A DNA stretch of 12,861 bases from an uncultured Lachnospiraceae bacterium (GTDB lineage: Bacteria > Bacillota_A > Clostridia > Lachnospirales > Lachnospiraceae), in NCBI GenBank assembly GCA_902780985.1, contig CACZHN010000062.1, positions 1 through 12,861 on the forward strand. Direction: 5' to 3'. Every line of letters begins with the position of its first letter. The first letter of the stretch is position 1. A program made the translations under genes and the position numbers. Shown here piece after piece: positions 1 to 12,861 of this stretch. The notes under the pieces are model-generated. The model was given only the letters and a program-made list of their open reading frames with translations, had not been told where the DNA came from and ran no database searches.

Positions 1-726
1 GTCAGTCCGTCAGATGCATTTATAAAAAAAGTAAAGTGGGTATCAACAAATAACAATATTGCAAAGGTAGATAGTAACGGTAATGTAACGGGAGTAGCCA
101 AAGGGACCGCATATATTTATGCAAAGGCAACAGATGGTTCGGGAAAAAATTCGGAATATTGCAGAATATATGTTTGGGGAAAGCAGGATGCACCGAAGGT
201 TACGGCGAAAGATTTCACAGTAAGCGAACAAAAAATCACATCAAATATTTCGGGAAATTATGAATATAGGATTAAGAAAAACGGTACATGGAGTTCATGG
301 AGCAGCTATGATTATTGGACAGGATTAAGTGTAAATACTTCGTATGATATAGGAGTAAGATTACGAAAGAATTCATCCGAATATCTTGATTCCGGAGCGG
401 AAACGGTAGTTACGATAAAAACTAATGATCACACACCGGAAACCATAAAAGGGAAAGCTGCTACGTGTACAGCGTCAGGACTTACGGACGGAACGAGATG
501 TGCATTTTGCGGTACGGTTATTAAGAAGCAGGAAACAATTCCGGCAAAGGGTCATAGCTGGGATTCCGGAAAGGTTACGAAGGCGGCAACCTGTACGGCA
601 AAGGGAGTAAAGACATACACATGTACAAAGTGTAAAGCAACGAAAACCGAGGATATACCGGCAGCCGGCCATAAAACGGTAACGGATGCAGGGCCGGAAG
701 TCATTGCTCAGTCTGCGGAACTGTAA
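1..726 (+). pseudogene. 5' fragment of a disrupted surface protein: BIG2-like, Fn3-like and Cys-rich repeats (start lies outside the window)
   Basis: Frame 1 is open from the window edge to TAA at 724-726, directly followed by a second TAA. The first ~55 residues resemble a bacterial Ig-like group 2 (BIG2) domain (KWVSTNNNIAKVD, NVTGVAKGTAYI). Next comes an Fn3-like segment (KNGTWSSWSSYDYW, GLSVNTSYDIGVRLR). From H at 430 there are Cys-rich repeats of the form H..C..CxxC. The frame is lost near 699: compared with the matching repeat in the gene at 2365, 34 nt are missing between the GTAACGGAT at 679-687 and the CAT at 702. After that the true repeat (SHCSVCGTVITAQQ) is read in frame 3 up to about 866. 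A second deficit of 71 nt then returns the reading to frame 1, which continues into the ChW part at 892-2037. The total loss, 105 nt, is exactly 35 codons. The start codon and signal peptide are not in view. An assembly artefact in repetitive DNA would look the same. Confidence 0.75.
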
Positions 727-862
727 TAACAGCACAACAGACAGTGAAAGCAACAGGCCACAACTGGGATTCCGGAAAGGTTACGAAGGCGGCAACCTGT
801 ACGGCGAAGGGAGTAAAAACATACACATGTACAAAGTGTAAAGCAACGAAAACCGAGGATAT
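561..862 (+). repeat. 96-nt direct repeat pair (561-656 and 767-862) within the Cys-rich array
   Basis: The two copies are offset by 206 nt and differ at only two positions by my alignment (A/G and G/A, both third codon positions). Each encodes WDSGKVTKAATCTAKG followed by the CTKC pair. A second pair, 700-742 and 869-911 (43 nt, one difference), is offset by 169 nt. The two offsets differ because the two flanking deletions have different sizes. Near-identity at silent sites points to recent duplication or gene conversion, or to an assembler mis-joining copies. Confidence 0.8.
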
Positions 863-891
863 CCGGACGTCATTGCTCAGTCTGCGGAACT

Positions 892-2037
892 GTGATAACA
901 GCACAACAGACCGTAAAGGCAAGCGGTCATAGTTGGGATTCAGGAAAGATAACAACTAAACCTACTACAACATCCACGGGAATTAAAACATATACGTGTA
1001 CAAAGTGCAAAACTACAAAGACAGAAATTATTCCGAAGTTAACACAGGAAGAGAAAGCCGGAGTAGCGTATACAACACATGTTCAGTCAATAGGCTGGCA
1101 GAACTTAGTCAGAAATGGTGATCTGGCAGGAACTGTCGGAGATGGCAAGAGGCTTGAAGCTATAAAGATTAGTCTTGAGAATGCGCCTTATACTGGTGAA
1201 ATAGAATACAGGACTCATGTACAGACATACGGTTGGCAAGGCTGGGCTAAAAACGGTTCTATTTCCGGAACAAGTGGTCAGGCTAAGAGGCTGGAGGCAA
1301 TCCAGATACGACTTACCGGAGAAATGGCAAAGCATTATGATGTATATTATAGAATCCAGGTTCAATCCTATGGCTGGCTTGGATGGGCCAAGAACGGAGA
1401 ATATTCCGGATCGGCAGGATATGGAAAGAGACTTGAAGCGATTCAGATTGTACTGGTTGAAAAAGGGAAGACTTTAGATAGGACAACTCTCAATAAACAA
1501 GCTAAGATTACTTCCTCAACAAAGGTTACAGACAGTACACCGTATATAGCAAAAGCTCCGAGTGTTGAGTACCAGACTCATGTACAGACATATGGCTGGC
1601 AGGGATTAAAGATTAATGGAGAAGTTTCGGGAACAATCGGAAAAGCTAAGAGACTTGAAGGAATTAAAATTAATCTGAGCAAACCTCCATATGATGGAGG
1701 AATCCGATATAAGACTCATATTCAATCAATTGGTTGGCAGGATTGGAAAAATGACGGAGCAATGTCCGGAACAAGTGGACAGTCTAAACGACTTGAAGCG
1801 ATATGTATAGAACTTACCGGAGAAATGGCACAGCATTACGATGTCTATTACAGAGTACATGCTCAGTCATACGGCTGGCTTGGCTGGGCAAAGAACGGTC
1901 AGAATGCGGGAACAGCAGGCTATGCAAAACGCCTTGAAGGAATTCAGATTGTTCTTGTAGAAAAAGGACAGGCCGAACCGGGGGCAACATATAAAGGAAT
2001 AACTGCTGACAGAACAGAGGCATATATTTCAAAGTAA
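892..2037 (+). CDS. 3' fragment of the same disrupted gene: last Cys-rich repeat plus six ChW repeats
   Basis: This is the C-terminal part of the gene that begins before position 1. The nominal start, GTG at 892, lies inside a Cys-rich repeat (VITAQQTVKASGH). It has no convincing ribosome binding site and no signal peptide, so I do not think it starts translation of a functional exported protein. The repeat reads GHSWDSGKITTKP and ends in a CTKC pair. Then come six ChW repeats (clostridial hydrophobic W, core GWQ...NG..SGTSGQ.KRLEAI.I.L) as two triplets joined by a linker with ITSSTKVTDSTPY. A short tail follows, GATYKGITADRTEAYISK, shared with the two paralogues in this window. ChW repeats are known from clostridial secreted proteins and are thought to act in surface attachment or substrate binding; that role is inferred. 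The TAA stop is followed within 10 nt by an intrinsic terminator, so this end of the gene is genuine. Confidence 0.7.
   Translation: MITAQQTVKASGHSWDSGKITTKPTTTSTGIKTYTCTKCKTTKTEIIPKLTQEEKAGVAYTTHVQSIGWQNLVRNGDLAGTVGDGKRLEAIKISLENAPYTGEIEYRTHVQTYGWQGWAKNGSISGTSGQAKRLEAIQIRLTGEMAKHYDVYYRIQVQSYGWLGWAKNGEYSGSAGYGKRLEAIQIVLVEKGKTLDRTTLNKQAKITSSTKVTDSTPYIAKAPSVEYQTHVQTYGWQGLKINGEVSGTIGKAKRLEGIKINLSKPPYDGGIRYKTHIQSIGWQDWKNDGAMSGTSGQSKRLEAICIELTGEMAQHYDVYYRVHAQSYGWLGWAKNGQNAGTAGYAKRLEGIQIVLVEKGQAEPGATYKGITADRTEAYISK
1063..1968 (+). repeat. ChW repeat array, six copies in two A-B-C triplets (first gene)
   Basis: Copies begin with VAYTTHVQSIGWQ, IEYRTHVQTYGWQ, YRIQVQSYGWLGW, VEYQTHVQTYGWQ, IRYKTHIQSIGWQ and YRVHAQSYGWLGW. 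Positions 3 and 6 are a distinct subtype: they lack the TH, have GWL in place of GWQ, and directly follow the segment E-M-A-x-H-Y-D-V-Y. Each copy is about 45 residues with an invariant GW and KRLE core. Confidence 0.9.
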
Positions 2038-2046
2038 TATAATATC

Positions 2047-2087
2047 AAAGGGATGATAATTAAATTATTGATTATCATCCCTTTTTC
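2047..2087 (+). terminator. Intrinsic terminator after the first ChW gene
   Basis: A perfect 14-bp stem (2047-2060 with 2071-2084) with a 10-nt loop runs into a short T-rich tract (to 2087). It starts 9 nt after the TAA of the upstream gene, the expected place for a Rho-independent terminator. The AAA/TTT base of the stem could also let it work weakly on the opposite strand. Confidence 0.85.
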
Positions 2088-2112
2088 TATAGTGAACGAT
2101 GATTAAAGATAC

Positions 2113-2141
2113 TTGAAATACACCTTCACAAAAGGTATAAT
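2113..2141 (+). promoter_or_regulatory. Sigma-A-type promoter for the riboswitch-controlled operon
   Basis: TTGAAA at 2113-2118 and a perfect TATAAT at 2136-2141 are separated by exactly 17 nt. The predicted transcript start is near 2148, just before the cyclic di-GMP aptamer. That is the spacing expected for a riboswitch leader. Confidence 0.8.
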
Positions 2142-2149
2142 TCTCATGT

Positions 2150-2245
2150 GGGTAAAAGTAAAATAAAAGGCAAAGCAGGAGAAATCCTGTGACGCAAAAC
2201 TATAGGGCCTAAAAATTGATTTTATGGTAGCCAGTTGCAACATAG
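2150..2245 (+). promoter_or_regulatory. Cyclic di-GMP-I (GEMM-I) riboswitch aptamer
   Basis: The conserved GEMM-I elements appear in order: GGCAAA (2169-2174); a CAGGA-GAAA-TCCTG hairpin with the typical GNRA tetraloop (2176-2189); GACGCAAAAC (2191-2200); GGGCCTAA (2205-2212); and GGTAGCCAGTTGC (2226-2238). Known members of this class bind the second messenger cyclic di-GMP. The aptamer lies between a good promoter and an intrinsic terminator, about 120 nt before the CAP/ChW surface-protein gene. I assigned it by motif pattern, not by covariance search. The exact outer boundaries (P1) are approximate. Confidence 0.87.
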
Positions 2246-2261
2246 TATGACTTGGATTTAC

Positions 2262-2296
2262 AGACGCTACCGTCGCATTGACAGTGGCGTCTTTTT
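2262..2296 (+). terminator. Riboswitch-linked intrinsic terminator (expression platform)
   Basis: AGACGCTAC (2262-2270) pairs with GTGGCGTCT (2284-2292), nine base pairs with one G-U, and is followed by a run of five T (2292-2296). The terminator's GCTACC (2266-2271) is the exact complement of the conserved aptamer segment GGTAGC (2226-2231). The two structures should therefore compete. If ligand holds GGTAGC inside the aptamer, the terminator is free to form, suggesting cyclic di-GMP switches the operon OFF. That polarity is an inference from pairing by eye. Confidence 0.8.
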
Positions 2297-2351
2297 GCGT
2301 TTAAGGAGCGATGCTTTACAAGGGGAAATAAAGCTTTGACTAAAGGGATAA

Positions 2352-2356
2352 AGAGG
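2352..2356 (+). promoter_or_regulatory. Ribosome binding site fixing the start at ATG 2365
   Basis: AGAGG lies 8 nt before ATG 2365 but only 2 nt before the in-frame TTG at 2359. The ATG is therefore the likely start. It also gives a standard Lys/Arg-rich signal-peptide n-region, MKRVGRNER. Confidence 0.65.
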
Positions 2357-2364
2357 AATTGCCG

Positions 2365-4896
2365 ATGAAACGTGTAGGAAGAAATGAAAGATTATTAAAC
2401 GGATTTATGGCTATGATCCTGACGCTGGCACTAGTCCTGTCGGGATGGATGGGAGACGGAACCCGCTATGTTTATGCGGATGAAGGCAGCGATGAAAATG
2501 AAGTAAGGATTGCCGAGGAAGGTAATCCGGTTGAGGATCCGAGTATTGTCAATGATGATGACAGTAATGTTCCGGTAGAGCCGGAAGAAGCCTCACCGTC
2601 GGATGCCGAGGATATGGCGACATCCGTATACAGCGTGAGCGGTCTGTACGGATTCAATAAGTTATCACAGGCACAGATCACATCTATGTATAACAGTGCC
2701 ATGAGTGTTGCACCGACGAAGATATTTGAGACGGAACCGTCTATATCGAGTCCGTATTCTTTAGGTGCATTAAATGAAACATTTCTGCAAACAGGAATTA
2801 CATATCTGAATTTTTACAGAAGTATAGCAAGCCTCGGTCAGGTTACAATGACGGATGACCTTATATACGGAACAGGAGGAGCACAGTACGGAGCGGTTCT
2901 TCTTGCAGCAGAAGATAATTTCGGACATACGCCGCCTAAGCCGGCAGATATGGATGACAGCTTTTATTCCAGCGGATATTCTGCAACAAGCTCAAGTAAC
3001 TTATCAGCCAGAAAGGGTTACTGCGTAGGAAATTCTCTCAGATCGGCTGTTAGAGGATGCATGGATGACAAGGAATCAACAGGCAACCTTACAACCATGG
3101 GACACAGAAGATGGTTTTTGAATCCTACTCTCGGTAAGGTAGGTTTCGGATATGCCAGAAGTGCCGACAACTGGAGCTATATCGATATGAAAGTATTCGA
3201 CAGAAGTGCGACTATCGACGGATACGATTTCGTATCATGGCCTGCAAGCGGCAACTTCCCAAATGAGATAGTGGATACAAGAACTCCTTGGTCGGTAACT
3301 CTTAATCCAACGATTTTCAATACATCATCGAGTATATTAAATTCGGCAGTAGTAACTATTACAAGAAAATCCGATAATAAGAAGTGGACAATCACGAATG
3401 CGTCAGACATGTCATCTCCTACGGGAAGTGATACGGTAAATTCGTATTTCCATGTAAACACGAACGGATACGGCGTAGCCAATTGTCTTATATTCCATAT
3501 CGGATCCAACAACGTTGGGGCAGAATCCTATGTTGGTGATTATGAAGTTGTAGTATCGGGACTTCAGGATAAAAGCGGAAATCCTGCCATGCTTGATTAT
3601 ACTGTAAGTTTCTTTAGCATGGGTGTTGATACTTCCAAAGCCGAGAACCATATATATGATTCAGGTGTTATCACAAGAGAACCAACCTGTCTGCAGACAG
3701 GAACAAAAACATATACATGTTCATTTTGCGGTTCTAAGAAGTATGAGAACCTTGGGTTTGGAGAACATAAATGGGACTCCGGAACAGTTACAAAAGCAGC
3801 AACTTGTACAGAAAAAGGAGCTAAAACATTCGAATGTACATTGTGCTACAAAAAGAAAACCGAGGAAATAAAAGCAACCGGTCACACAGCGGTAACAGAT
3901 AAGGCAGTAGCGGCGACCTGTACAACAGACGGAAAAACAGCAGGAAGCCATTGCTCGAAGTGCGGAACGATAATCACTGCGCAGCAGACAGTAAAGGCAA
4001 CCGGCCACACAGCGGTAACTGATAAGGCAGTATCCGCAACCTGTACAACAGATGGTAAAACAGAAGGAAGTCACTGTTCAAAGTGTGGTGCGGTAATAGT
4101 AGCACAGCAGACCATAAAGGCCGGCCATACACCTGTAACGGATAAAGCAGTAGCGGCGACCTGTACAACAGACGGGAAAACAGCGGGAAGCCATTGCTCG
4201 AAGTGCGGAACGATTATTACAGCGCAGCAGACAGTAAAGGCAACCGGTCACATCTGGGATGACGGAAAGATCACCAAGCAGGCAACAGCAACCGAAACAG
4301 GTGTTATGACATACACCTGCACGACTTGTAAAACTACACGAACCGAAACAATTCCTAAGCTTAAGGATGATAAGGCAGCGGGAGTTGCATATACCACACA
4401 TGTTCAGTCAATCGGCTGGCAGGATCAGGTAAGAGATGGTCAGCTCGCGGGAACGGTCGGAGACGGCAAGCGTCTTGAAGCCATAAAGATAAGTCTTGAA
4501 AATGCACCGTACAGCGGCGGCATTGAGTACAGAACTCATGTACAGACTTACGGCTGGCAGGACTATGTAAAGAACGGAGCTCTTTCCGGTACCAGCGGTG
4601 AGGCAAAGCGCCTTGAAGCTATCCAGATAAGACTTACCGGAGAAATGGCTAAGTACTACGATGTTTATTACAGGATTCAGGTTCAGACCTTCGGATGGCT
4701 GGGCTGGGCAAAGAACGGTGAGTATGCGGGTTCTGCAGGTTATGCCAAGAGACTTGAATCCATCCAGATAGTCCTTGTTAAGAAGGGCGATTCCCTTGAT
4801 AAGACTGCACTTAACAAGCTTGCAAATATTACCTCATCTACAAAGGTTACAGACAGTACGCCTTATGTGGCAAAGGCTCCGAGTGTTGAGTATTAG
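2365..4896 (+). CDS. Secreted CAP-domain surface protein with Cys-rich repeats and ChW repeats, truncated by an in-frame TAG
   Basis: From ATG 2365 the product has 843 residues; reading through TAG it would have 997. Residues 1-38 form a signal peptide ending YVYA. Residues ~40-85 are an acidic linker. A CAP/SCP-like (PR-1 superfamily) domain spans about 135-285: LNFYRS near 148, the first His in NFGHTPPKP near 188, and GHRRWFLNP near 247. A beta-rich segment follows to ~420. Six H..C..CxxC repeats span ~429-664; the sixth lacks its first Cys (QATATETG). Three ChW repeats span ~674-810, then a linker (NITSSTKVTDSTPY). The TAG falls four residues into repeat 4, where the paralogue at 1564 has CAG, so a C-to-T change explains it. 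CAP proteins are secreted proteins of diverse function, including lipid or ligand binding; the substrate here is unknown. The gene is first in a riboswitch-led transcript with the glycosyltransferase genes downstream. Loss of repeats 4-6 may weaken surface attachment. Confidence 0.88.
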   Translation: MKRVGRNERLLNGFMAMILTLALVLSGWMGDGTRYVYADEGSDENEVRIAEEGNPVEDPSIVNDDDSNVPVEPEEASPSDAEDMATSVYSVSGLYGFNKLSQAQITSMYNSAMSVAPTKIFETEPSISSPYSLGALNETFLQTGITYLNFYRSIASLGQVTMTDDLIYGTGGAQYGAVLLAAEDNFGHTPPKPADMDDSFYSSGYSATSSSNLSARKGYCVGNSLRSAVRGCMDDKESTGNLTTMGHRRWFLNPTLGKVGFGYARSADNWSYIDMKVFDRSATIDGYDFVSWPASGNFPNEIVDTRTPWSVTLNPTIFNTSSSILNSAVVTITRKSDNKKWTITNASDMSSPTGSDTVNSYFHVNTNGYGVANCLIFHIGSNNVGAESYVGDYEVVVSGLQDKSGNPAMLDYTVSFFSMGVDTSKAENHIYDSGVITREPTCLQTGTKTYTCSFCGSKKYENLGFGEHKWDSGTVTKAATCTEKGAKTFECTLCYKKKTEEIKATGHTAVTDKAVAATCTTDGKTAGSHCSKCGTIITAQQTVKATGHTAVTDKAVSATCTTDGKTEGSHCSKCGAVIVAQQTIKAGHTPVTDKAVAATCTTDGKTAGSHCSKCGTIITAQQTVKATGHIWDDGKITKQATATETGVMTYTCTTCKTTRTETIPKLKDDKAAGVAYTTHVQSIGWQDQVRDGQLAGTVGDGKRLEAIKISLENAPYSGGIEYRTHVQTYGWQDYVKNGALSGTSGEAKRLEAIQIRLTGEMAKYYDVYYRIQVQTFGWLGWAKNGEYAGSAGYAKRLESIQIVLVKKGDSLDKTALNKLANITSSTKVTDSTPYVAKAPSVEY
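3649..4356 (+). repeat. Six tandem Cys-rich H..C..CxxC repeats in the CAP protein
   Basis: Each repeat is about 40 residues: a His (usually GH), then TC about 12 residues on, then a CxxC pair about 10 residues later. Two subtypes occur. The W type (HKWDSGTVTKAATC) is copies 1, 2 and 6. The V-T-D-K-A type (HTAVTDKAVAATCTTDGKT then GSHCSKCG) is copies 3-5. Similar spacer repeats are common in Lachnospiraceae surface proteins. Three Cys and a His could bind a metal or form disulphides; the sequence does not decide which. Confidence 0.85.
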
Positions 4897-5289
4897 ACTC
4901 ATGTTCAGACCTATGGCTGGCAGGAACTCAAGATCAACGGCGAGATGTCCGGAACCAGCGGACAGGCAAAGCGTCTTGAGGGTATTAAGATCAATCTCAG
5001 CAAGCCTCCGTACGAAGGCGGAATCAGATATAAGACACACGTTCAGACTTACGGCTGGCAGGGCTGGAAGTACGACGGAGACATGTCCGGAACCAGCGGC
5101 GAAGCAAAACGTCTGGAAGCCATTTCTATCGAATTAACAGGTGAAATGGCCGAGCACTATGATGTATACTATAGAGTGCATGCGCAGACCTACGGCTGGC
5201 TCGGTTGGGCAAAGAACGGACAGAATTCCGGAACCGCCGGTATGGCAAAACGTCTCGAAGGAATTCAGATCGTGATTGTCGAGAAGGGT
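4384..5289 (+). repeat. ChW repeat array of the CAP protein, six copies split by TAG at 4894
   Basis: The arrangement is the same A-B-C / A-B-C as in the first gene: VAYTTHVQSIGWQ, IEYRTHVQTYGWQ, YRIQVQTFGWLGW, VEY-stop-THVQTYGWQ, IRYKTHVQTYGWQ, YRVHAQTYGWLGW. The linker and repeats are nearly the same protein as at 1063-1968, but many codons differ at third positions, so the two arrays are not a recent copy. TAG at 4894-4896 separates copies 3 and 4. Confidence 0.9.
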
Positions 5290-5358
5290 CAGGCTGCACC
5301 GGGTGCTACATACAAGGGCATTACAGCAAACAGAAGCGAGGCCTACATAGAGAAGTAA
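4897..5358 (+). pseudogene. 3' remnant of the CAP/ChW gene after the in-frame TAG: ChW repeats 4-6 and conserved tail
   Basis: This continues the frame of 2365-4896 with no shift: 153 sense codons then TAA at 5356-5358. It holds three well-kept ChW repeats and the shared tail GATYKGITANRSEAYIEK. No frameshift or further stop has accumulated, so the interruption is recent, tolerated by suppression, or a sequencing error. The first internal ATG (4945) lies inside repeat 4 without a signal peptide, so separate translation would give a cytoplasmic fragment. Confidence 0.75.
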
Positions 5359-5370
5359 AGGACAGAACCG

Positions 5371-6345
5371 ATGGACAAGATAGCAATTCTGATTCCCTGT
5401 TACAACGAAGCGAAGACGATTGGGAAAATAGTCAGTGATTATAAAAGGGTGCTTCCCGAAGCAACCGTATATGTTTATGACAACAACTCCACCGACGGCA
5501 CGGACAAAATAGCCCGTGCCGCCGGTGCGGTTGTGAGGTATGAGTATCAGCAGGGAAAGGGAAATGTAATCCGACGTATGTTCAGAGACATCGATGCGGA
5601 GTGCTACATCATGACGGACGGGGACGATACCTATCCGGCGGAGAGTGCACCAGAGATGGCTGAGCTTGTACTGAAAAAGAATGTTGATATGGTGGTCGGC
5701 GACAGATTGTCGTCGACTTACTTTGAGGAGAATAAACGCCCATTCCACAACTTCGGCAATACTATCGTAAGACGCAGTATCAACCGATTATTCAAGGGCG
5801 ACATAAAGGATATCATGACAGGCTTCAGGGCCTTCAGTTATAACTTTGTGAAGACATTTCCTATTCTGTCCAAGGGGTTTGAGATAGAAACGGAAATGAG
5901 TATCCATGCAATAGATAAGAACATGTATATAGAAAATGTAGTGGTGGACTACAGGGACAGACCCGACGGAAGCGAGTCGAAGCTGAACACGTATTCCGAC
6001 GGCATGAAGGTTCTTATGACCATCATGAGACTTTACAGGACATATAAGCCGTTACGATTCTTCGGCGGCCTGTCAATGATTATGTGCATACTTGCCGCTG
6101 CATTTTTTATTCCGGTATTTGTTGAATATCTTAATACGGGTCTTGTTCTGAAGTTTCCGACTCTGATAGTATGCGGCTTTGTTGTTATAGCGGCGATTCA
6201 ATCATTTTTTACGGGACTTACACTTCAGACGATGATACAAAAGAATAAGCAGGATTTTGAAATTGAACTCATACGGACAAATGACGAATTTAAGAAAAAA
6301 AAGAATACTTATCACGGGGATAGCGATAGTTCTGTCGATCGTTAG
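5371..6345 (+). CDS. Family 2 glycosyltransferase, polyprenyl-phosphate sugar synthase type, with two C-terminal membrane helices
   Basis: This 324-residue protein probably transfers a sugar from a nucleotide donor to polyprenyl phosphate on the cytoplasmic membrane face, as in the DPM1/DPG-synthase-like branch of GT2. The GT-A fold is clear: IAILIPCYNEAKTIGKIV at residues 4-21, VYDNNSTDGT at 35-44, GKGN at 62-65, and the DxD-type metal site TDGDDTYP at 82-89 (D83, D85). Then come GDRLSS at 110-115 and DIMTGFRAF at 147-155. FEIETEMSIHA at 170-180 and the RPDGSESKL segment near 197 are typical of this group. Hydrophobic segments at ~230-252 and ~262-285 are likely membrane helices. The ribosome binding site AAAGGA (5357-5362) overlaps the TAA of the upstream surface-protein gene, so the two are probably co-transcribed and coupled. 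An early stop upstream (4894) could reduce that coupling. The sugar is not determined. Confidence 0.9.
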   Translation: MDKIAILIPCYNEAKTIGKIVSDYKRVLPEATVYVYDNNSTDGTDKIARAAGAVVRYEYQQGKGNVIRRMFRDIDAECYIMTDGDDTYPAESAPEMAELVLKKNVDMVVGDRLSSTYFEENKRPFHNFGNTIVRRSINRLFKGDIKDIMTGFRAFSYNFVKTFPILSKGFEIETEMSIHAIDKNMYIENVVVDYRDRPDGSESKLNTYSDGMKVLMTIMRLYRTYKPLRFFGGLSMIMCILAAAFFIPVFVEYLNTGLVLKFPTLIVCGFVVIAAIQSFFTGLTLQTMIQKNKQDFEIELIRTNDEFKKKKNTYHGDSDSSVDR

Positions 6346-7963
6346 GATGGCACTCATGATGTCAACTCCGGCCCATATAATCGGGGACTCGGGGTATGAT
6401 GACGCGTTTCAGGTGAATCAGGCGTTATCGATCTGCCTCAAAAGTTGGCTGGGAGACTACATAGAGACCACTTTATCGAAAGGAGTATCCTTCCCTGTAT
6501 TTCTATGTGCAGCCAAAGTTGTATGCATGCCTTATTACATGCTGCTGGCGCTTTTTTACTTCTTTGCTGCGGCGGTATTTGTGGCAGCGTTAAGAGACGA
6601 GGTAAAGAACAGCTGGGTGAGACTGGGGATGTATCTTTTTCTGATATATAACCCGGTGAGCTTTTCCGGAGATGTAACAGCAAGGATATACAGAAATGCG
6701 ATTTGTTATCCGGCGGTTCTTCTGACGACAGCCGCTATGATAGGAGCATACCTCAGGAAAGATAAGGGTGGAAAGAGTTACGTTCTGTGGCTCGCATTGA
6801 CGGGGTTTAGCTTTACATTTTTCTATTACATCAGAGAAGACTCGGTGTGGCTGGTTCCTATGGCGGGAGCGGTTACGGTACTGATCATTCTATGGAATGT
6901 ATTTCGGAAGAAAAAGTCGATTAAGCGTATAGCGGCATTGGCCGTTCCGTATATCATATTCCTCTGCATTTCCTTAGGATATATGGCAATGAATCACAGA
7001 TTCTACGGAGCATATATCATAAATGACAGAACAGGCGGTGAGTTTGCGGAGATAACGGAAAAGCTGTTGAAGGTTGAAGAAGGAAGAGTGGCGGATAAGA
7101 CGATCTGGGTAAGCAGAGAGACTTTTCGAAGGACTATGGAGGAGTGTCCTTCCGTGTCGGGATATGCGGATACTCTGGTGGATTATTATAATATCTGGAG
7201 TACGACGGAGGGAACCAGAGGAGATCTTTACGTATGGGCGCTGAGACAGGGACTGTATGACGTGCTGGATATCGAATCGGCGGCTGAACTTCAGGATGCA
7301 AGCAGGTTGATCAGCGATGAGATAGACAGAGCATTTGAGGAGGGCAGGCTGCATAAGACAGATCTGATATATCTTTCTTCCCAGACAAGAGGACTTGAGA
7401 AGGCTGAAGTTTCGGCATTTATAGGTGGTGCGCTTAAGAACTGGCTGGACGTTGTAACCTATAAATGCGTGACATTTTCCGGACCGCAGCAGGCGACGGG
7501 AAGTGAAAGCGAGATCCGACTGATGGAAGCTATGACAGGAGCCCACGGATTGAAGGGAATAAACTCCGAAGGTGATGAGGATTCAATGGTAAATCTTCAG
7601 TCGAGAGTATATAAGGTGAATAACGGATTGATAAGGCTGTATGCGTTGATCAATAAATTGCTGATAGTGATGGCGGGAATAGGTCAGGTAGTGCTGGTTG
7701 TCGCATATTTCAGAAAGAGAACCTGGAGGAGTTTCGACAGAGCCGTTATTCCGCTGGGAGTACTTCTCAGCTCTTTTGTACTGGTTCTGGGCGTATCATT
7801 CATGGTCGAATGGATAGGATATGCGGGGTTGTGGTTCTACTCATCAGGAACCCCTGTGCTGGTAAGTATATTCGAGATTCTTTCCGTTTATTGGGGAACA
7901 AAAAATATTATTGATTCAAATCAATTATTTGATAAAAAATGCGAAATGTCCGAAAACAATTGA
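6281..7963 (+). CDS. Polytopic membrane protein, putative GT-C-type glycosyltransferase
   Basis: This is a 560-residue protein from ATG 6281. An in-frame TTG at 6257 is possible but has only a 2-nt gap to AGGA; neither start has a strong ribosome binding site. It overlaps the glycosyltransferase gene by 65 nt, implying translational coupling. A first helix (~9-28) is followed by an outer loop with acidic residues (GDSGYDDAF, 35-43) and WLGDY...TLSKGVSFPVFL (56-75). Several more helices run to ~235 (including YYIREDSVWLVP). A large hydrophilic region spans ~236-440, and helices return from ~450 to the end. The N-terminal helix plus acidic first loop is the layout of GT-C enzymes, which transfer sugars from lipid carriers outside the membrane. 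Pairing with a lipid-phosphate-type GT2 supports that role. I recognise no named subfamily. It could instead be a flippase-like or export protein. Confidence 0.72.
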   Translation: MTNLRKKRILITGIAIVLSIVRMALMMSTPAHIIGDSGYDDAFQVNQALSICLKSWLGDYIETTLSKGVSFPVFLCAAKVVCMPYYMLLALFYFFAAAVFVAALRDEVKNSWVRLGMYLFLIYNPVSFSGDVTARIYRNAICYPAVLLTTAAMIGAYLRKDKGGKSYVLWLALTGFSFTFFYYIREDSVWLVPMAGAVTVLIILWNVFRKKKSIKRIAALAVPYIIFLCISLGYMAMNHRFYGAYIINDRTGGEFAEITEKLLKVEEGRVADKTIWVSRETFRRTMEECPSVSGYADTLVDYYNIWSTTEGTRGDLYVWALRQGLYDVLDIESAAELQDASRLISDEIDRAFEEGRLHKTDLIYLSSQTRGLEKAEVSAFIGGALKNWLDVVTYKCVTFSGPQQATGSESEIRLMEAMTGAHGLKGINSEGDEDSMVNLQSRVYKVNNGLIRLYALINKLLIVMAGIGQVVLVVAYFRKRTWRSFDRAVIPLGVLLSSFVLVLGVSFMVEWIGYAGLWFYSSGTPVLVSIFEILSVYWGTKNIIDSNQLFDKKCEMSENN

Positions 7964-7993
7964 TGAAAATTGCGGAATATTAATAAAATTCTC

Positions 7994-8033
7994 TTGTTTA
8001 TCAGGTTAACAAACGTTATAATTTTATTATAAT
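7994..8033 (+). promoter_or_regulatory. Two overlapping sigma-A-type promoters before the third ChW gene
   Basis: TTGTTT (7994-7999) is 17 nt before TATAAT (8017-8022). TTAACA (8006-8011) is 16 nt before a second perfect TATAAT (8028-8033). Predicted starts are near 8029 and 8040, only 4-15 nt before the long hairpin at 8044. No better promoter lies between the hairpin and the ATG at 8169. Confidence 0.7.
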
Positions 8034-8043
8034 GTAAGGCCTG

Positions 8044-8116
8044 AAACGCGACACCGGAGGACTGAAACTGAGGGTCAGAAAGATTCATCTGTTCAGTCTT
8101 CCGGTGTCGCGTTTTT
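8044..8116 (+). terminator. Long leader hairpin with T-run: terminator or attenuator
   Basis: Arms 8044-8066 and 8092-8114 are 23 nt each and pair along their whole length with one G-U. The loop is 25 nt and itself contains CTGA/TCAG and CAGA/TCTG complements. A run of five T (8112-8116) follows. It could end the upstream glycosylation operon, but two good promoters precede it, so it also lies in the leader of the gene at 8169. There it would act as an attenuator or as a stabilising 5' structure. I could not match the leader to a known riboswitch class. Confidence 0.75.
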
Positions 8117-8168
8117 GCTTTATCGGGAAATAGTTGGGATGTATTTTTGCAGAAAGGAGAGGTAGTGT

Positions 8169-11100
8169 ATGGGGCGTAAAAGAAGAAAACTATATGCTTA
8201 TTTTATAGCTTTTTGTATGGCGCTTTCGATGTTGTTCCCATCCGGTGTTGTATATGCGAACGGGGATCAGGATGGTCAGAATGTAGAAGGCGGAAATCTT
8301 GACGGGCAAGAACAGGGAGACGGAAATCCGAGTGGACAGGGTCAACAGGAAGATGAATATAATATAGACTTTGGACCTGACGGATCCTTTGATGTTAACG
8401 GTACAACGGTTTATATATACTTTGATCCTGCAACTGTAGAAAACAGAGAGCCGGTTAAGGGATTCAATAAGATTCAGGATGATACACCTATTTATCTGTC
8501 ATCATACGATGGGGATACAATGGATGTATGTATTTATGCTACGGATGGTTTTTCTACCAGATTAGCGGTAGATGAGAATCTTAAGACCAGTGTCGGTGCT
8601 AGAGATGCTGATGTATTGCCGTTTGAGGATAGAGAAGGCAATCCGATAGGACTTGAATTCAGGGTAGAGCCTAAGAGACAGGAAGGTCCGGGTCCCGGAC
8701 CGGGACCTGACCAGAATGACAGAGAGGCAGTCATAAATGTAAAGGGACTGGAGTATAAGGGCAAGACCACCTGGACAGGTGTTCCGGGAACAGAACGTTG
8801 GGACGGCGCTCCTGCGGTAACTGTTGATCTGAATAAGACCTGGACAGCTGTTTCAATCAGCGTAAACGATAATTGGGCAGGAGATGCGCATACCCGATGT
8901 GAAAGATACGAACCGGGTGAAGATGATAGATTGCCGGCGGAATTATATGAAGAACTGGGATCGCAGCGCATAAGAATGAACAGAGGGGACGATGATGAGT
9001 TTGTAAGTCTGGATTTCTTCCTCAGCAGCTGGGGCGATGAAGTCTATGCATTAAAGATTAACGGCGTTGACTATACGGATCAGCTCAAGGTTGATACCGA
9101 TAAAGACGGCATTCCTGATACAACTTACTTTGATGACAGATACTCATGGCTGTTACGTTTCCGTGATCAGGGTACCAGATTCAGTATAAAGAACGTACCT
9201 GTTAACGAGAAGCAGGACGGTGACAGAGTTTACGATGAGTATAATGTCGAGATAGCCATTGCACCGAACGAAGAGTGTTACATAGGGAATTTCGGATGGT
9301 CGAATAATGATTACTTTGCACCGGAACCTTTAGGCGTTGAACCGAGTGATCTTTATATCGGACATTCCACACTTACACTTCTTTCGGTAGATTATTTCGA
9401 CGGTGATCCGGATTGGGATTTCGATAAGGACGGATTAAAGCATCTGGATATAAAGAGGACGGAGAATCCGAACAATAATTCATATGCATACGAATCCAAC
9501 GACGAGATAAACTATATTCATTATGAACTGGACAGACCAAGCCGCATGGCCAGCGATATAGAAGTTGAGACCAGTGAGATGGTCATTCCTGAAGGTTCAT
9601 GGGTTACTATGAAGATAGAGCCTGACTACGGATATCAGGTTGTTTCATTTAACGTAACGGAAGATGAAATCAAGCTTGATAAAAATGCGGAAGGCGCTTC
9701 CGTATTCAGCTTTAAGGTAGGTAAGGGCAATTACCACATCGGAGCACAGGTAGTTGAGGTCGGAAATGATGCCAAGGTTGATAATGCGGAGAACATCGAT
9801 TTTGCCATGGTAGAACTTCCGGAAGGAACTATTGAAACAGGTACCGCCAGACTTACGGTTGAGGATGCGAATCCGAATGCCGACAAGAAAGCGGAATTCG
9901 AACAGATAGCAGAGGATGAAGGTTTAGAGATCGAGAATTATCTTGATATAAATCTTGATCAGGTATTCTTCCAGGGAACAGGAAATGATGAAGATGTATG
10001 GAAATTCCCGATGGAAGATCTTGAGAATCCTGCACAGGTAGGACTTCAGCTGGGCGAAGGACTGCTTGGTGATGATCTTGGTGACGGAGATCTTGTTGTA
10101 ATCCATAATATTCATGATGAAGAAGGTGATTTTGAGGTTCTTGATACGGAACTTGTCGAAGAAAACGGCAAAGTGGGAATCGTGTTTGATGCGGATTCTT
10201 TCTCAGGATATGCGATTGCAAGAAAGAAAAAAGATGTAAAAGAGCCCGGCATTTCATACGTAACACATGTTCAGAGTTACGGATGGCAGGGTAAAGAAGC
10301 TGATCCGACAACCTGGAAGGCTGACGGAAAGCTCTCAGGTACGGTTGGAGAGAGTAAACGACTTGAGGCTATAAGGATAAAGCTGAATGATGCTCCGTAC
10401 AGCGGAGGTATCGAATACAGAACTCATGTTCAGACCTATGGCTGGCAGAAGTGGGTTAAAGACGGTGAGCTTTCGGGAACAAGCGGCCAGGCAAAGCGCC
10501 TTGAGGCTATTCAGATAAGACTTACGGGCGATATGGCCAAGAATTATGATGTTTACTACAGAGTTCAGGCACAGACCTACGGTTGGCTCGGTTGGGCTAA
10601 GAACGGAGAGTACGCAGGTACTTCGGGACAGGCAAAGCGCCTTGAGGCTATTCAGATAGTTATTGTTAAGAAGGGAACTGTAATAACAGGAAATACCGAG
10701 ATTGGCGGAGTTAAGCTTGATAAGCTGGGCAACATCACTGCTTCTACAAAGCAGACTCCGGGCAAGGGATATGTAGCACCGATGCCTGATATCCAGTACG
10801 CAACTCATGTTCAGAGCTACGGCTGGCAGGGATATGTAAAGAACGGAGCTATGTCCGGAACCAGCGGCCAGGCAAAGCGTCTTGAAGGAATAAGGATCAA
10901 GCTCGGAAGTCTTCCTTATGAAGGCGGAGTAAGATACACAACACACATTCAGTCGATCGGATGGCAGGATAATGAGAATTATCCTACAACCTGGACCAAG
11001 GACGGCAACATGTCCGGAACCAGCGGCCAGGCAAAGCGTCTCGAAGCTATAAGGATCAACCTGTACGGCGATATGGCTGAAAATTACGATATCTACTACA

Positions 11101-11285
11101 GAGTACATGCACAGAGCTACGGCTGGCTCGGCTGGGCGAAGAACGGCGAAGCAGCCGGAACAGCAGGCTATGCAAAGAGACTCGAAGGAATACAGATAGT
11201 TCTTGTAGAAAAGGGCAAGTCAGCCCCGGGCAAGACCTATAACGGAATAACAGCAAATAACGACAAGGCCTACATCTCAAAGTGA
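8169..11285 (+). CDS. Secreted acidic surface protein with six ChW repeats (intact)
   Basis: This 1038-residue product starts at ATG 8169, 9 nt after AAGGAG (8154-8159). A signal peptide (residues 1-30, RKRRK n-region) ends VVYA. An Asp/Gly/Gln-rich linker (~31-62) follows, then a head region (~63-690) that I do not recognise. A Gly-Pro run near 173-180 splits the head. Two Asp-rich loops, DTDKDGIPD (309-317) and DWDFDKDG (415-422), look like calcium-binding DxDxDG motifs. A segment ending DADSFSGYAIARKK (~674-688) resembles the end of a beta-sandwich repeat. ChW repeats span 695-1016 as two A-B-C triplets. The tail KTYNGITANNDKAYISK matches the tails of the other two ChW genes. No sortase motif is seen, so ChW repeats may provide retention. 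The head likely binds a surface or glycan ligand, but that is a guess. It has its own promoter and leader hairpin and is the only fully intact secreted-protein gene here. Confidence 0.9.
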   Translation: MGRKRRKLYAYFIAFCMALSMLFPSGVVYANGDQDGQNVEGGNLDGQEQGDGNPSGQGQQEDEYNIDFGPDGSFDVNGTTVYIYFDPATVENREPVKGFNKIQDDTPIYLSSYDGDTMDVCIYATDGFSTRLAVDENLKTSVGARDADVLPFEDREGNPIGLEFRVEPKRQEGPGPGPGPDQNDREAVINVKGLEYKGKTTWTGVPGTERWDGAPAVTVDLNKTWTAVSISVNDNWAGDAHTRCERYEPGEDDRLPAELYEELGSQRIRMNRGDDDEFVSLDFFLSSWGDEVYALKINGVDYTDQLKVDTDKDGIPDTTYFDDRYSWLLRFRDQGTRFSIKNVPVNEKQDGDRVYDEYNVEIAIAPNEECYIGNFGWSNNDYFAPEPLGVEPSDLYIGHSTLTLLSVDYFDGDPDWDFDKDGLKHLDIKRTENPNNNSYAYESNDEINYIHYELDRPSRMASDIEVETSEMVIPEGSWVTMKIEPDYGYQVVSFNVTEDEIKLDKNAEGASVFSFKVGKGNYHIGAQVVEVGNDAKVDNAENIDFAMVELPEGTIETGTARLTVEDANPNADKKAEFEQIAEDEGLEIENYLDINLDQVFFQGTGNDEDVWKFPMEDLENPAQVGLQLGEGLLGDDLGDGDLVVIHNIHDEEGDFEVLDTELVEENGKVGIVFDADSFSGYAIARKKKDVKEPGISYVTHVQSYGWQGKEADPTTWKADGKLSGTVGESKRLEAIRIKLNDAPYSGGIEYRTHVQTYGWQKWVKDGELSGTSGQAKRLEAIQIRLTGDMAKNYDVYYRVQAQTYGWLGWAKNGEYAGTSGQAKRLEAIQIVIVKKGTVITGNTEIGGVKLDKLGNITASTKQTPGKGYVAPMPDIQYATHVQSYGWQGYVKNGAMSGTSGQAKRLEGIRIKLGSLPYEGGVRYTTHIQSIGWQDNENYPTTWTKDGNMSGTSGQAKRLEAIRINLYGDMAENYDIYYRVHAQSYGWLGWAKNGEAAGTAGYAKRLEGIQIVLVEKGKSAPGKTYNGITANNDKAYISK
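10251..11216 (+). repeat. ChW repeat array of the third gene, six copies
   Basis: Copies begin ISYVTHVQSYGWQ, IEYRTHVQTYGWQ, YRVQAQTYGWLGW, IQYATHVQSYGWQ, VRYTTHIQSIGWQ and YRVHAQSYGWLGW. Copies 1 and 5 carry extra residues after GWQ containing PTTW (DPTTWKADG, YPTTWTKDG). Exact nucleotide repeats occur inside the array: 32 nt at 10851-10882 and 11010-11041, and 30 nt at 10488-10517 and 10629-10658. Confidence 0.9.
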
Positions 11286-11286
11286 A

Positions 11287-11341
11287 ACACGGGGACGGGG
11301 GTTAAGTATTCATTTTGAATACTTAACCCCCGTCCCCATGT
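11287..11341 (+). repeat. REP-like GC-rich palindrome between two surface-protein genes
   Basis: Arms 11291-11311 and 11317-11337 are 21-nt perfect complements around a 5-nt loop (ATTTT). After one mismatch, three more outer pairs extend the stem. It begins right after the TGA of the third ChW gene. No T-run follows, so it is not a standard terminator, though it could still protect the mRNA 3' end. The core GGGGACGGGGGTTAAGT resembles dispersed repetitive palindromes (REP type, often spread by REP-associated transposases). That resemblance is from memory of such elements, and only one copy is present here. Confidence 0.7.
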
Positions 11342-11350
11342 GCCATACAG

Positions 11351-11379
11351 TTCACGACAAAAAATATACTGTTTATAAC
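11351..11379 (+). promoter_or_regulatory. Possible promoter for the transglutaminase-like gene
   Basis: TTCACG (11351-11356) and TATAAC (11374-11379) have 17-nt spacing but match the consensus only moderately (4/6 and 5/6). Further AT-rich -10-like sequences occur at 11365 (TATACT) and 11410 (TAATAT) without good -35 partners. A separate promoter is expected here because the palindrome separates the genes. Confidence 0.4.
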
Positions 11380-11439
11380 ATTTATGTGATTTTGGCAGAG
11401 TGTTTCAGATAATATAGAAACCTGACGTTATGTGACATT

Positions 11440-11445
11440 AGGAGG
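11440..11445 (+). promoter_or_regulatory. Perfect ribosome binding site fixing the start at ATG 11453
   Basis: AGGAGG lies 7 nt before ATG 11453. A GTG at 11432 in the same frame would place this site inside the coding region and spoil the signal peptide, so the ATG is preferred. Confidence 0.85.
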
Positions 11446-11452
11446 AAAAGAC

Positions 11453-12340
11453 ATGTTGAAACAAAAGGTGTTGGTGTTGGCGATGATTCTTCTTGTCGTG
11501 ACCGGATTACAGACGGACTTTTTTTCGTGCATAGTATATGCAGATGAAGAAGATTTTGAGCCGGAGATAACCGTAACGGTTGAGGAAGTTGAAGATGAAG
11601 GGGCTCTTCAACAGATCTCGGATGAGGAATTCGCTGATTACATTACCGATTTTAATGAACTGGTGGCGGAGACAAAGGGGTACGTTAAAAATCGTACAGA
11701 GAGCTTTACGGTAAAATATGCATCTCAGCAGCAGCTGACTGATGACGAAGCGAAGACAGTATATTATTGGGTAGGTGAGCACAACGGGAAAGGCGATGAA
11801 GGCGATTATCTGATACATAACATTCATAAAAGCGATATGCATGTAGTCTGTACTGCCGAATACACCGCAGAGCCGGATGTAGTCTATTATTGTTATGATT
11901 TTGAGTTTTCGTTTGCTTATTTCTCCACATTACAGGAAGAGCAGCAGCTGACCGAAAAACTGAATCAGATTTATCAGTCACTGGGTCTGGATGCCATGTC
12001 GGAATATGACAAGGTTCAGACTATATACAGATACATTTGCGTGAATGTGGATTATGATCATGATGGACGCTTTAATGCGAAAGTTAATAATGATATTGAT
12101 TTTGAAATCTATTCGGCAACAGCGGCAGTGCTAAAGGGGAAAGCGGTATGTAACGGTTATGCACTGCTTTTATACAGAATGGCGTTGGATAACGGTATCG
12201 ATTGTAGATTTGTTTATGGATTAGCAGGTCATAAAAACGATAAGGATAAGGAAGCCCACGCGTGGAATCTGATCAGAGTGGGCGATAAATACTACTATGC
12301 GGATTCAACCTGGGATAGTCCTGAGGGGACGAGAGATTAA
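11453..12340 (+). CDS. Secreted transglutaminase-like cysteine peptidase domain protein, ended by an in-frame TAA
   Basis: The product is 295 residues from ATG 11453. A signal peptide (1-30, ending IVYA) is followed by an acidic segment (DEEDFEPEITVTVEEVEDEG). A transglutaminase-like domain occupies about 180-290. Its catalytic triad is visible: Cys233 in GKAVCNGYA, His269 in EAHAWN and Asp284 in YYADSTWD. Upstream, YDKVQTIYRYICVNVDYD (185-202) is the usual lead-in helix of this family. Such secreted proteins are usually thought to be peptidases or protein cross-linkers acting at the cell surface; the substrate is unknown. The TAA at 12338-12340 comes about 10 residues after the TWD motif, and the same frame stays open to the window edge, so the native protein was probably longer. 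The triad is intact, so the truncated form might still fold. Confidence 0.85.
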   Translation: MLKQKVLVLAMILLVVTGLQTDFFSCIVYADEEDFEPEITVTVEEVEDEGALQQISDEEFADYITDFNELVAETKGYVKNRTESFTVKYASQQQLTDDEAKTVYYWVGEHNGKGDEGDYLIHNIHKSDMHVVCTAEYTAEPDVVYYCYDFEFSFAYFSTLQEEQQLTEKLNQIYQSLGLDAMSEYDKVQTIYRYICVNVDYDHDGRFNAKVNNDIDFEIYSATAAVLKGKAVCNGYALLLYRMALDNGIDCRFVYGLAGHKNDKDKEAHAWNLIRVGDKYYYADSTWDSPEGTRD

Positions 12341-12861
12341 TTCGAAGGCGGTGATACGGTACAGCCCGGCAACAAACCGGAAGAGAAGAGCGAATACAAG
12401 GTTACATTGCTTGCAGGTGAGCACTCAAAAGGATTTAAGGGGGATGACGGAAAATATACAAACAGCATTGATATGACAAAAGCCGCAAAACATAAGTTGG
12501 GTGAAATGCAGATACCCGAAGCGGAGGACGGATATATATTCGTAGGATGGAAGATAGACGGAATGGATTCACTATTCAGAACTAAGGATATGTACGATAA
12601 GGAATCGGGAAATTCCAGATATATAGAGGATTATTATCTGAAAACTGATATCACGGTAACAGCTCAGTTTGAGAAAAGTTTTACGGTTACATTTAAGGAT
12701 GAAACAGGAGCGGGCTTTTACGGACAAAACGGAAATACGTATGTTAAAGAGTACACCGTCGCCGAAGGTAAAAGCTTATATGAAGTACCGTATGTGGATG
12801 AAGAACAGGAATTGGTATTTGCAGGCTGGAAGAGAGTGGATACAGGAGAATTTTTCAGCTA
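12341..12861 (+). pseudogene. In-frame continuation of the transglutaminase-like gene: linker and repeat region (runs off the window)
   Basis: After TAA 12338-12340 the same frame has 173 further codons without a stop up to the edge. It encodes a linker (EGGDTVQPGNKPEEK), then two units of the form ...GYIFVGWKIDG...DITVTAQFEKS and ...LVFAGWKRVD, resembling InlB B-repeat / Listeria-Bacteroides repeat modules of surface proteins. There is no start codon with a ribosome binding site or signal peptide after the stop, so this is best read as the detached C-terminal part of the same gene. Confidence 0.7.

Follow-up and report, generated by a model that had tools for sequence, protein, structure and literature searches.

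A class I cyclic di-GMP riboswitch, probably an OFF switch, ahead of a CAP-like/ChW surface protein gene in a Lachnospiraceae bacterium

We analysed a 12,861-nucleotide stretch of DNA from an uncultured Lachnospiraceae bacterium (hereafter the window; contig CACZHN010000062.1, positions 1 to 12,861, of GenBank assembly GCA_902780985.1), in which a gene for a CAP-like surface protein with ChW repeats is preceded by a leader containing a class I cyclic di-GMP (c-di-GMP) riboswitch. Judged from its sequence and that of a relative, this riboswitch is real and conserved, and we consider it likely that it turns transcription of the gene off when c-di-GMP is bound. As a switch it is ordinary and of a known type; the interesting lead is the array of such switches ahead of ChW genes in the genome of Lachnospiraceae bacterium UBA2864 (G001). 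The leader contains the following elements.

2113-2141, + strand: promoter-like site, TTGAAA-17-TATAAT, matching the consensus at 11 of 12 positions
2148-2159, + strand: 5' strand of an outer helix, P1A-like, predicted by ViennaRNA to close the aptamer
2159-2242, + strand: c-di-GMP-I (GEMM-I) aptamer, RF01051
2224-2231, + strand: candidate antiterminator 5' strand, AUGGUAGC, inside the aptamer
2250-2261, + strand: 3' strand of the predicted outer helix (ViennaRNA)
2262-2292, + strand: intrinsic terminator hairpin of 9 bp, one mismatch and 3 bp, -17.8 kcal/mol
2266-2273, + strand: candidate antiterminator 3' strand, GCUACCGU, inside the terminator 5' arm

A sequence-only reading of this DNA had placed a consensus promoter, a GEMM-I aptamer and an intrinsic terminator in this leader, and all three were found. 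An Rfam covariance search matched RF01051 over its full length (model positions 1-87) with 72.2 bits against a gathering cut-off of 35 (E 6.7e-13); this was the single match above gathering in the window, and a search of the whole window gave no second GEMM-I even at E<=1. The base at model position 11, which we take to be the G20 of the literature, is G2169, as in aptamers of the c-di-GMP type. Only two promoter-like sites in the window reach 11 of 12 consensus matches (2113-2141 and 8006-8033), and transcription from the former probably starts at A2146 or G2148. Over the whole window the overall count of promoter-like sites was not above chance (26, versus 25.7 in shuffled sequences), and terminator-like sites numbered 10, versus 8.3. 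A U-run (2292-2296) lies at the 3' end of the terminator hairpin.

The aptamer ends at 2242 and the terminator starts at 2262, and as the two are separated by 19 nt and do not overlap, both can form together. The mutual exclusion that had been proposed therefore applies to the aptamer and the antiterminator, but not to the aptamer and the terminator. The complementarity behind it was confirmed: GCTACC in the terminator (2266-2271) and GGTAGC in the aptamer (2226-2231), each present only once on the + strand of the window, form part of a candidate antiterminator helix (2224-2231/2266-2273) of 8 bp with one U-G. Since it is the antiterminator, and not the terminator, that conflicts with the aptamer, ligand binding should favour termination, and for the same reason, as in the Cd1 riboswitch of C. 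difficile, an OFF switch is the best reading of this leader.

At low c-di-GMP, the emerging GCUACC would capture GGUAGC, forming an antiterminator that would last long enough for RNA polymerase to pass. At high c-di-GMP, the bound aptamer and the outer helix (2148-2159/2250-2261) would hold GGUAGC, allowing the terminator hairpin to form, and the CAP-like/ChW gene, probably together with the glycosyltransferase and membrane-protein genes that follow it, would not be transcribed. Such control would have to be kinetic, since thermodynamics favours the terminator once it is complete; the same is reported for Cd1 (PMC9262584). If this OFF logic is true, this part of the surface coat would be made at low c-di-GMP. 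The genome of the relative G001 contains 37 GGDEF matches.

The sequence-only reading had called an OFF switch unexpected if the protein is an adhesin, an expectation that was not borne out, as the adhesin premise is unsupported here and OFF is the rule for class I switches in C. difficile. According to a review, the seven functional class I riboswitches of that species are OFF switches, and a class I switch also represses zmpI, the product of which releases predicted adhesins (PMC6366702). Given these precedents, an OFF switch ahead of a surface gene is not odd, and the same review warns that the sign is not simply transferable between bacteria (PMC6366702).

An ortholog of the gene in UBA2864 (contig region L001 of G001) has an RF01051 match at 9794-9878, and comparison of the two leaders showed 239 of 251 aligned positions to be identical (95%), whereas agreement over the initial 1.5 kb of the gene was 1211 of 1516 positions, with 62% identity at third codon positions. 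As leader identity is far above that of third codon positions, the leader is under selection. The aptamers are identical in 84 of 85 columns, both promoter hexamers are unchanged, and the outer helix has an unchanged 5' strand (2148-2159) and a single change in its 3' strand, at 2255, a base that the prediction leaves unpaired. The terminator 5' arm, including the antiterminator 3' strand (2266-2273), is also unchanged, and the 8-bp pairing of aptamer bases with this arm is kept in L001. The four changes in the hairpin (2275, 2283, 2286 and 2292) affect the loop, the 3' arm or the final base of that arm, and the one at 2286 converts a U-G to a U-A pair. Position 2271 has remained C in both species although this base is mismatched in the terminator and finds a partner, G2226, only in the antiterminator. 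As these are two sequences only, a conserved antiterminator is supported but not proven.

The same architecture was sought across the lineage, where RF01051 occurs in 53 of 61 genomes of the genus of G001 at E<=0.001 (52 above the cut-off). The set comprised 96 of at least 150 RF01051 matches (150 counted by eye), made up of 92 of the top-scoring 93 and of four with weaker scores; three of the 96 lacked a locus, and the remaining 93 plus the window made 94. The search for terminators was confined to the 115 nt downstream of each aptamer match, a rule that would miss overlapping (ON-type) terminators; it found one at 83 of the 94 loci and none at 11. At these 83 loci, the best helix with the locus's own aptamer scored 15.0 for terminator 5' arms, against 12.6 for 3' arms and 12.3 for shuffled 5' arms, and the 5' arm beat the 3' arm in 55 cases and lost in 24. 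At the decision point, when the 3' arm is about to emerge, the model gave a pairing of 0.57 between 5' arm and aptamer, against 0.36 for shuffled arms, and the value exceeded that of the shuffled arms in 69 of the 83 (Wilcoxon, 6e-11). The individual helix reached p<=0.05 at 26 loci and p<=0.01 at 18; because it lay above p 0.05 at the other 57, the set as a whole tends strongly towards the OFF topology, which is not shown for each locus singly. The commonest candidate antiterminator design set a GCGUCAC-like strand against GUGACGC (14/83), and GCUUUG against GGCAAAGCA was found at 4 of the 83 loci.

Several results weigh against an OFF switch in the window leader. Taken alone, the 8-bp match is modest when compared with shuffled terminator arms (p 0.035). 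The predicted outer helix competes with the antiterminator, because their pairs cross. In a ViennaRNA model, which includes neither ligand nor tertiary contacts of the aptamer, the probability of the antiterminator just before the terminator 3' arm emerges was 0.11-0.20 when transcription began at 2146 or 2148 and 0.10-0.57 across the full set of starts tried, making it mostly a minority state; the corresponding range for the L001 ortholog was 0.20-0.85. After its 3' arm has emerged, the terminator is favoured by about 6-10 kcal/mol. In the lineage comparison, neither the window (0.04, shuffled 0.10) nor the ortholog (0.07, shuffled 0.09) beat its shuffles. Finally, the platform was present in two sequences only among the genomes searched, so no covariation can be counted: in a search of 299 family genomes with the leader DNA, 51 matched, and among the matches listed only that of G001 spanned the whole leader, the others covering parts. 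The complement itself is real, but folding prediction left the antiterminator mostly a minority in this leader, and the OFF logic of the sequence-only reading draws its support from the Rfam match, the conservation of the leader and the topology shared with relatives.

An ON switch, in which the ligand promotes read-through, is unlikely here. Class I ON control of a surface protein does exist, since Bc2 of Bacillus thuringiensis is reported as an ON switch ahead of the gene for a collagen adhesion protein (PMC6366702), and the antiterminator drawn above is not dominant in the model, so that another platform is conceivable. However, the aptamer and terminator of the GEMM-I ON switch pilM are described as mutually exclusive and sharing a strand (PMC9262584), whereas here they lie 19 nt apart, and we saw no helix by which the bound aptamer would weaken the terminator; an ON platform was rejected because no strand is common to the two. 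It is also quite improbable that the aptamer binds c-di-GMP in a leader that always terminates or is a decayed remnant. The thermodynamic advantage of the complete terminator, the weakness of the modelled antiterminator and an in-frame TAG in the downstream gene (4894-4896) would fit such a remnant, but the identity of the leader with that of L001, so far above that of third codon positions, argues against it. Moreover, the antiterminator of Cd1 is likewise described as only transiently stable, yet Cd1 works (PMC9262584), and the stop codon says nothing about relatives, as a close homologue (P0001) reads on.

Translational control, in which the ligand would govern exposure of the ribosome-binding site, has very little to recommend it, although class I translational switches such as Vc2 have been described (PMC9262584). 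The ribosome site (2352-2358) lies about 55 nt beyond a good terminator, and its modelled exposure (0.54 in the free state, 0.44 with the antiterminator, 0.37 with aptamer and terminator) changed so little between states that this candidate was rejected.

The gene under the presumed transcriptional OFF switch and those that follow it are arranged as listed here.

2365-4896, + strand: CAP-like / Cys-containing repeat / ChW surface protein gene, 843 amino acids, signal peptide by eye, ending at the in-frame TAG
4897-5358, + strand: remainder of the CAP-like/ChW frame past the stop, with three more ChW stretches
5371-6345, + strand: GT2 glycosyltransferase gene, 12 bases after the preceding frame
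6305-7963, + strand: gene that overlaps the GT2 gene and encodes a membrane protein (by eye) with no match in Pfam or NCBIfam

The proposed identity of the product as a CAP/ChW surface protein held for the ChW repeats (PF07538, 167.7 bits against a cut-off of 22) and, by eye, for the signal peptide, but not fully for CAP, as PF00188 scored 17.7 bits against a cut-off of 21.1 (E 0.0068). We call the protein CAP-like because, despite this score, all nine aligned sequences matched PF00188 at E<=1 (best 5.3e-6); the family is also present in many of the 120 homologues listed. The TAG at 4894-4896, through which P0001 (99% identical over the queried part) continues, may be either a genuine nonsense codon or an error of assembly. 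No terminator-like site was found on the + strand between the CAP-like/ChW frame and the GT2 gene, and the GT2 and membrane-protein genes are probably in the same transcript. A sequence search of the PDB gave four chance-level matches (lowest E 0.024), a tblastn search of plasmids gave 29 records, none of which reached 60% identity or covered 80% of the query, and a scan of viral contigs gave no relatives. Upstream of the leader, the frame of an Ig-like/ChW gene (window 1-2037) is broken between about 726 and 892.

In G001, 5 of the 13 RF01051 matches precede ChW genes.

L001 6155, 9794, 13825 and 19480: four ChW-linked switches in one array, with genes at 6356, 10001, 14038 and 19651
C42:2963: fifth ChW-linked switch of G001

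At the ortholog (L001 9794), the gene is split by a masked stretch, with the ChW part in the next frame piece. The window counterparts of two other array genes, 8169 (63% identity with L001 14038) and 11453 (42% identity with the front part of L001 19651), are without a GEMM-I, so that the switch of the CAP-like/ChW gene is the one kept in both genomes. The five switches show at least two candidate antiterminator designs, and they also differ at the ligand-setting base. Three of the five have A at model position 11, as opposed to none of the other eight in G001 (Fisher p 0.035); in the whole set, where this base was read by counting from the match start and the expected GCAA stood beside it in 84 of 94, A occurred at 24 of 94 loci. 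For the three G001 switches with A, the Rfam alignment gave the same base. The aptamer of the window has G at model position 11 and C at 83, whereas one of the three, the switch at L032 1501-1583 (G001:C44:215441-215523), combines A at 11 with U at 83, a position that we take to be C92. With 46 bits, this last switch is the lowest-scoring of the 13 in G001, and it may be in decay. Reports on engineered aptamers indicate that a G20A mutant can bind cyclic GMP-AMP (cGAMP; PMC7288161, PMC6274999) and that G20A/C92U binds cyclic di-AMP (PMC7288161). A more far-reaching but improbable reading is that each gene in the array of ChW paralogues has its own link to cyclic dinucleotides and that the aptamers have begun to diverge in ligand, with G20 (c-di-GMP) for the CAP-like/ChW gene and one other, and A20 (possibly for 3',3'-cGAMP, or for both) for three, one of them resembling G20A/C92U, such that the composition of the coat would follow the dinucleotide mix.

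ChW repeats were found in 46 of the 299 family genomes. Besides G001, 15 of the 45 ChW-bearing genomes had RF01051, with 30 matches, and no ChW was found in the up to 5 kb examined downstream of 28 of these (two at contig ends excluded). Among the 93 genus loci, ChW stood next to a GEMM-I only in G001, with at least 3 kb downstream available for 60 of the 94 and less for 34; this is a lower bound on the distribution, because shorter stretches missed three of the five G001 cases that longer ones revealed. The notion that all CAP-like relatives carry the switch was rejected, as L002-L006 lacked RF01051 in the stretches examined. A search of one literature library found, among the papers listed, none tying ChW proteins or Lachnospiraceae to c-di-GMP riboswitches. 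ChW cell-surface proteins join the targets of class I c-di-GMP riboswitches, and G001 offers a testable set of five ChW-linked switches differing in candidate antiterminator and ligand-setting base.

Other observations concern the neighbouring ChW gene at 8169 and the remaining lineage loci. Ahead of the 8169 gene, window 8006-8120 holds a promoter-like site and, directly after it, a hairpin of great length (-52.6 kcal/mol) that has a U-run; a mir-127 match at 8033-8124 (28.1 bits against a gathering cut-off of 60) was rejected as chance on this hairpin. The segment gave two short partial matches only in the 299 family genomes, and the G001 counterpart of the gene has a GEMM-I at the place of the hairpin. 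A near-perfect inverted repeat seen by eye, GGGGACGGGGGTTAAGTATTC...GAATACTTAACCCCCGTCCCC, lies 3' of the 8169 gene at 11290-11336. Genes with a prepilin-like start follow 13 of the 94 GEMM-I loci, among them L107, L111, L017 and L074, and in 4 of these 13 the terminator arms are complementary to GGCAAAGCA, an OFF topology; this is opposite in sign to C. difficile pilA1, reported to be induced by c-di-GMP through a class II switch (PMC6366702). At 10 of the 94 loci the gene that follows encodes a small protein, helix-turn-helix-like by eye, in which an RRVQKMCS-like motif occurs.

Among known systems, Cd1 (Cdi1_3) of the C. difficile flgB operon is like the window leader in having a class I aptamer, a separate terminator and an antiterminator (in the window a candidate) that competes with the aptamer, the aptamer and terminator of Cd1 being described as able to coexist (PMC9262584). 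It differs in that it controls flagella, in that its antiterminator uses the aptamer-stabilising strand, and in that it is known by experiment, and the window leader by sequence and model. Cdi1_12 of C. difficile, ahead of zmpI (PPEP-1, CD2830), shares with the window leader a class I aptamer, negative control (in the window leader only probable) and a place ahead of a gene for an exported surface protein (PMC3649979, PMC6366702), but that product is a protease, not a CAP-like/ChW protein. Bc2 of B. thuringiensis also stands before a surface protein gene, and differs in its reported sign. The ChW-linked switches of UBA2864, of which L001 9794 is the ortholog, have the same aptamer family before ChW genes; unlike the window, three of the five carry A at model position 11, and three of the five have a GCGUCA(C/U):GUGACGC candidate antiterminator.

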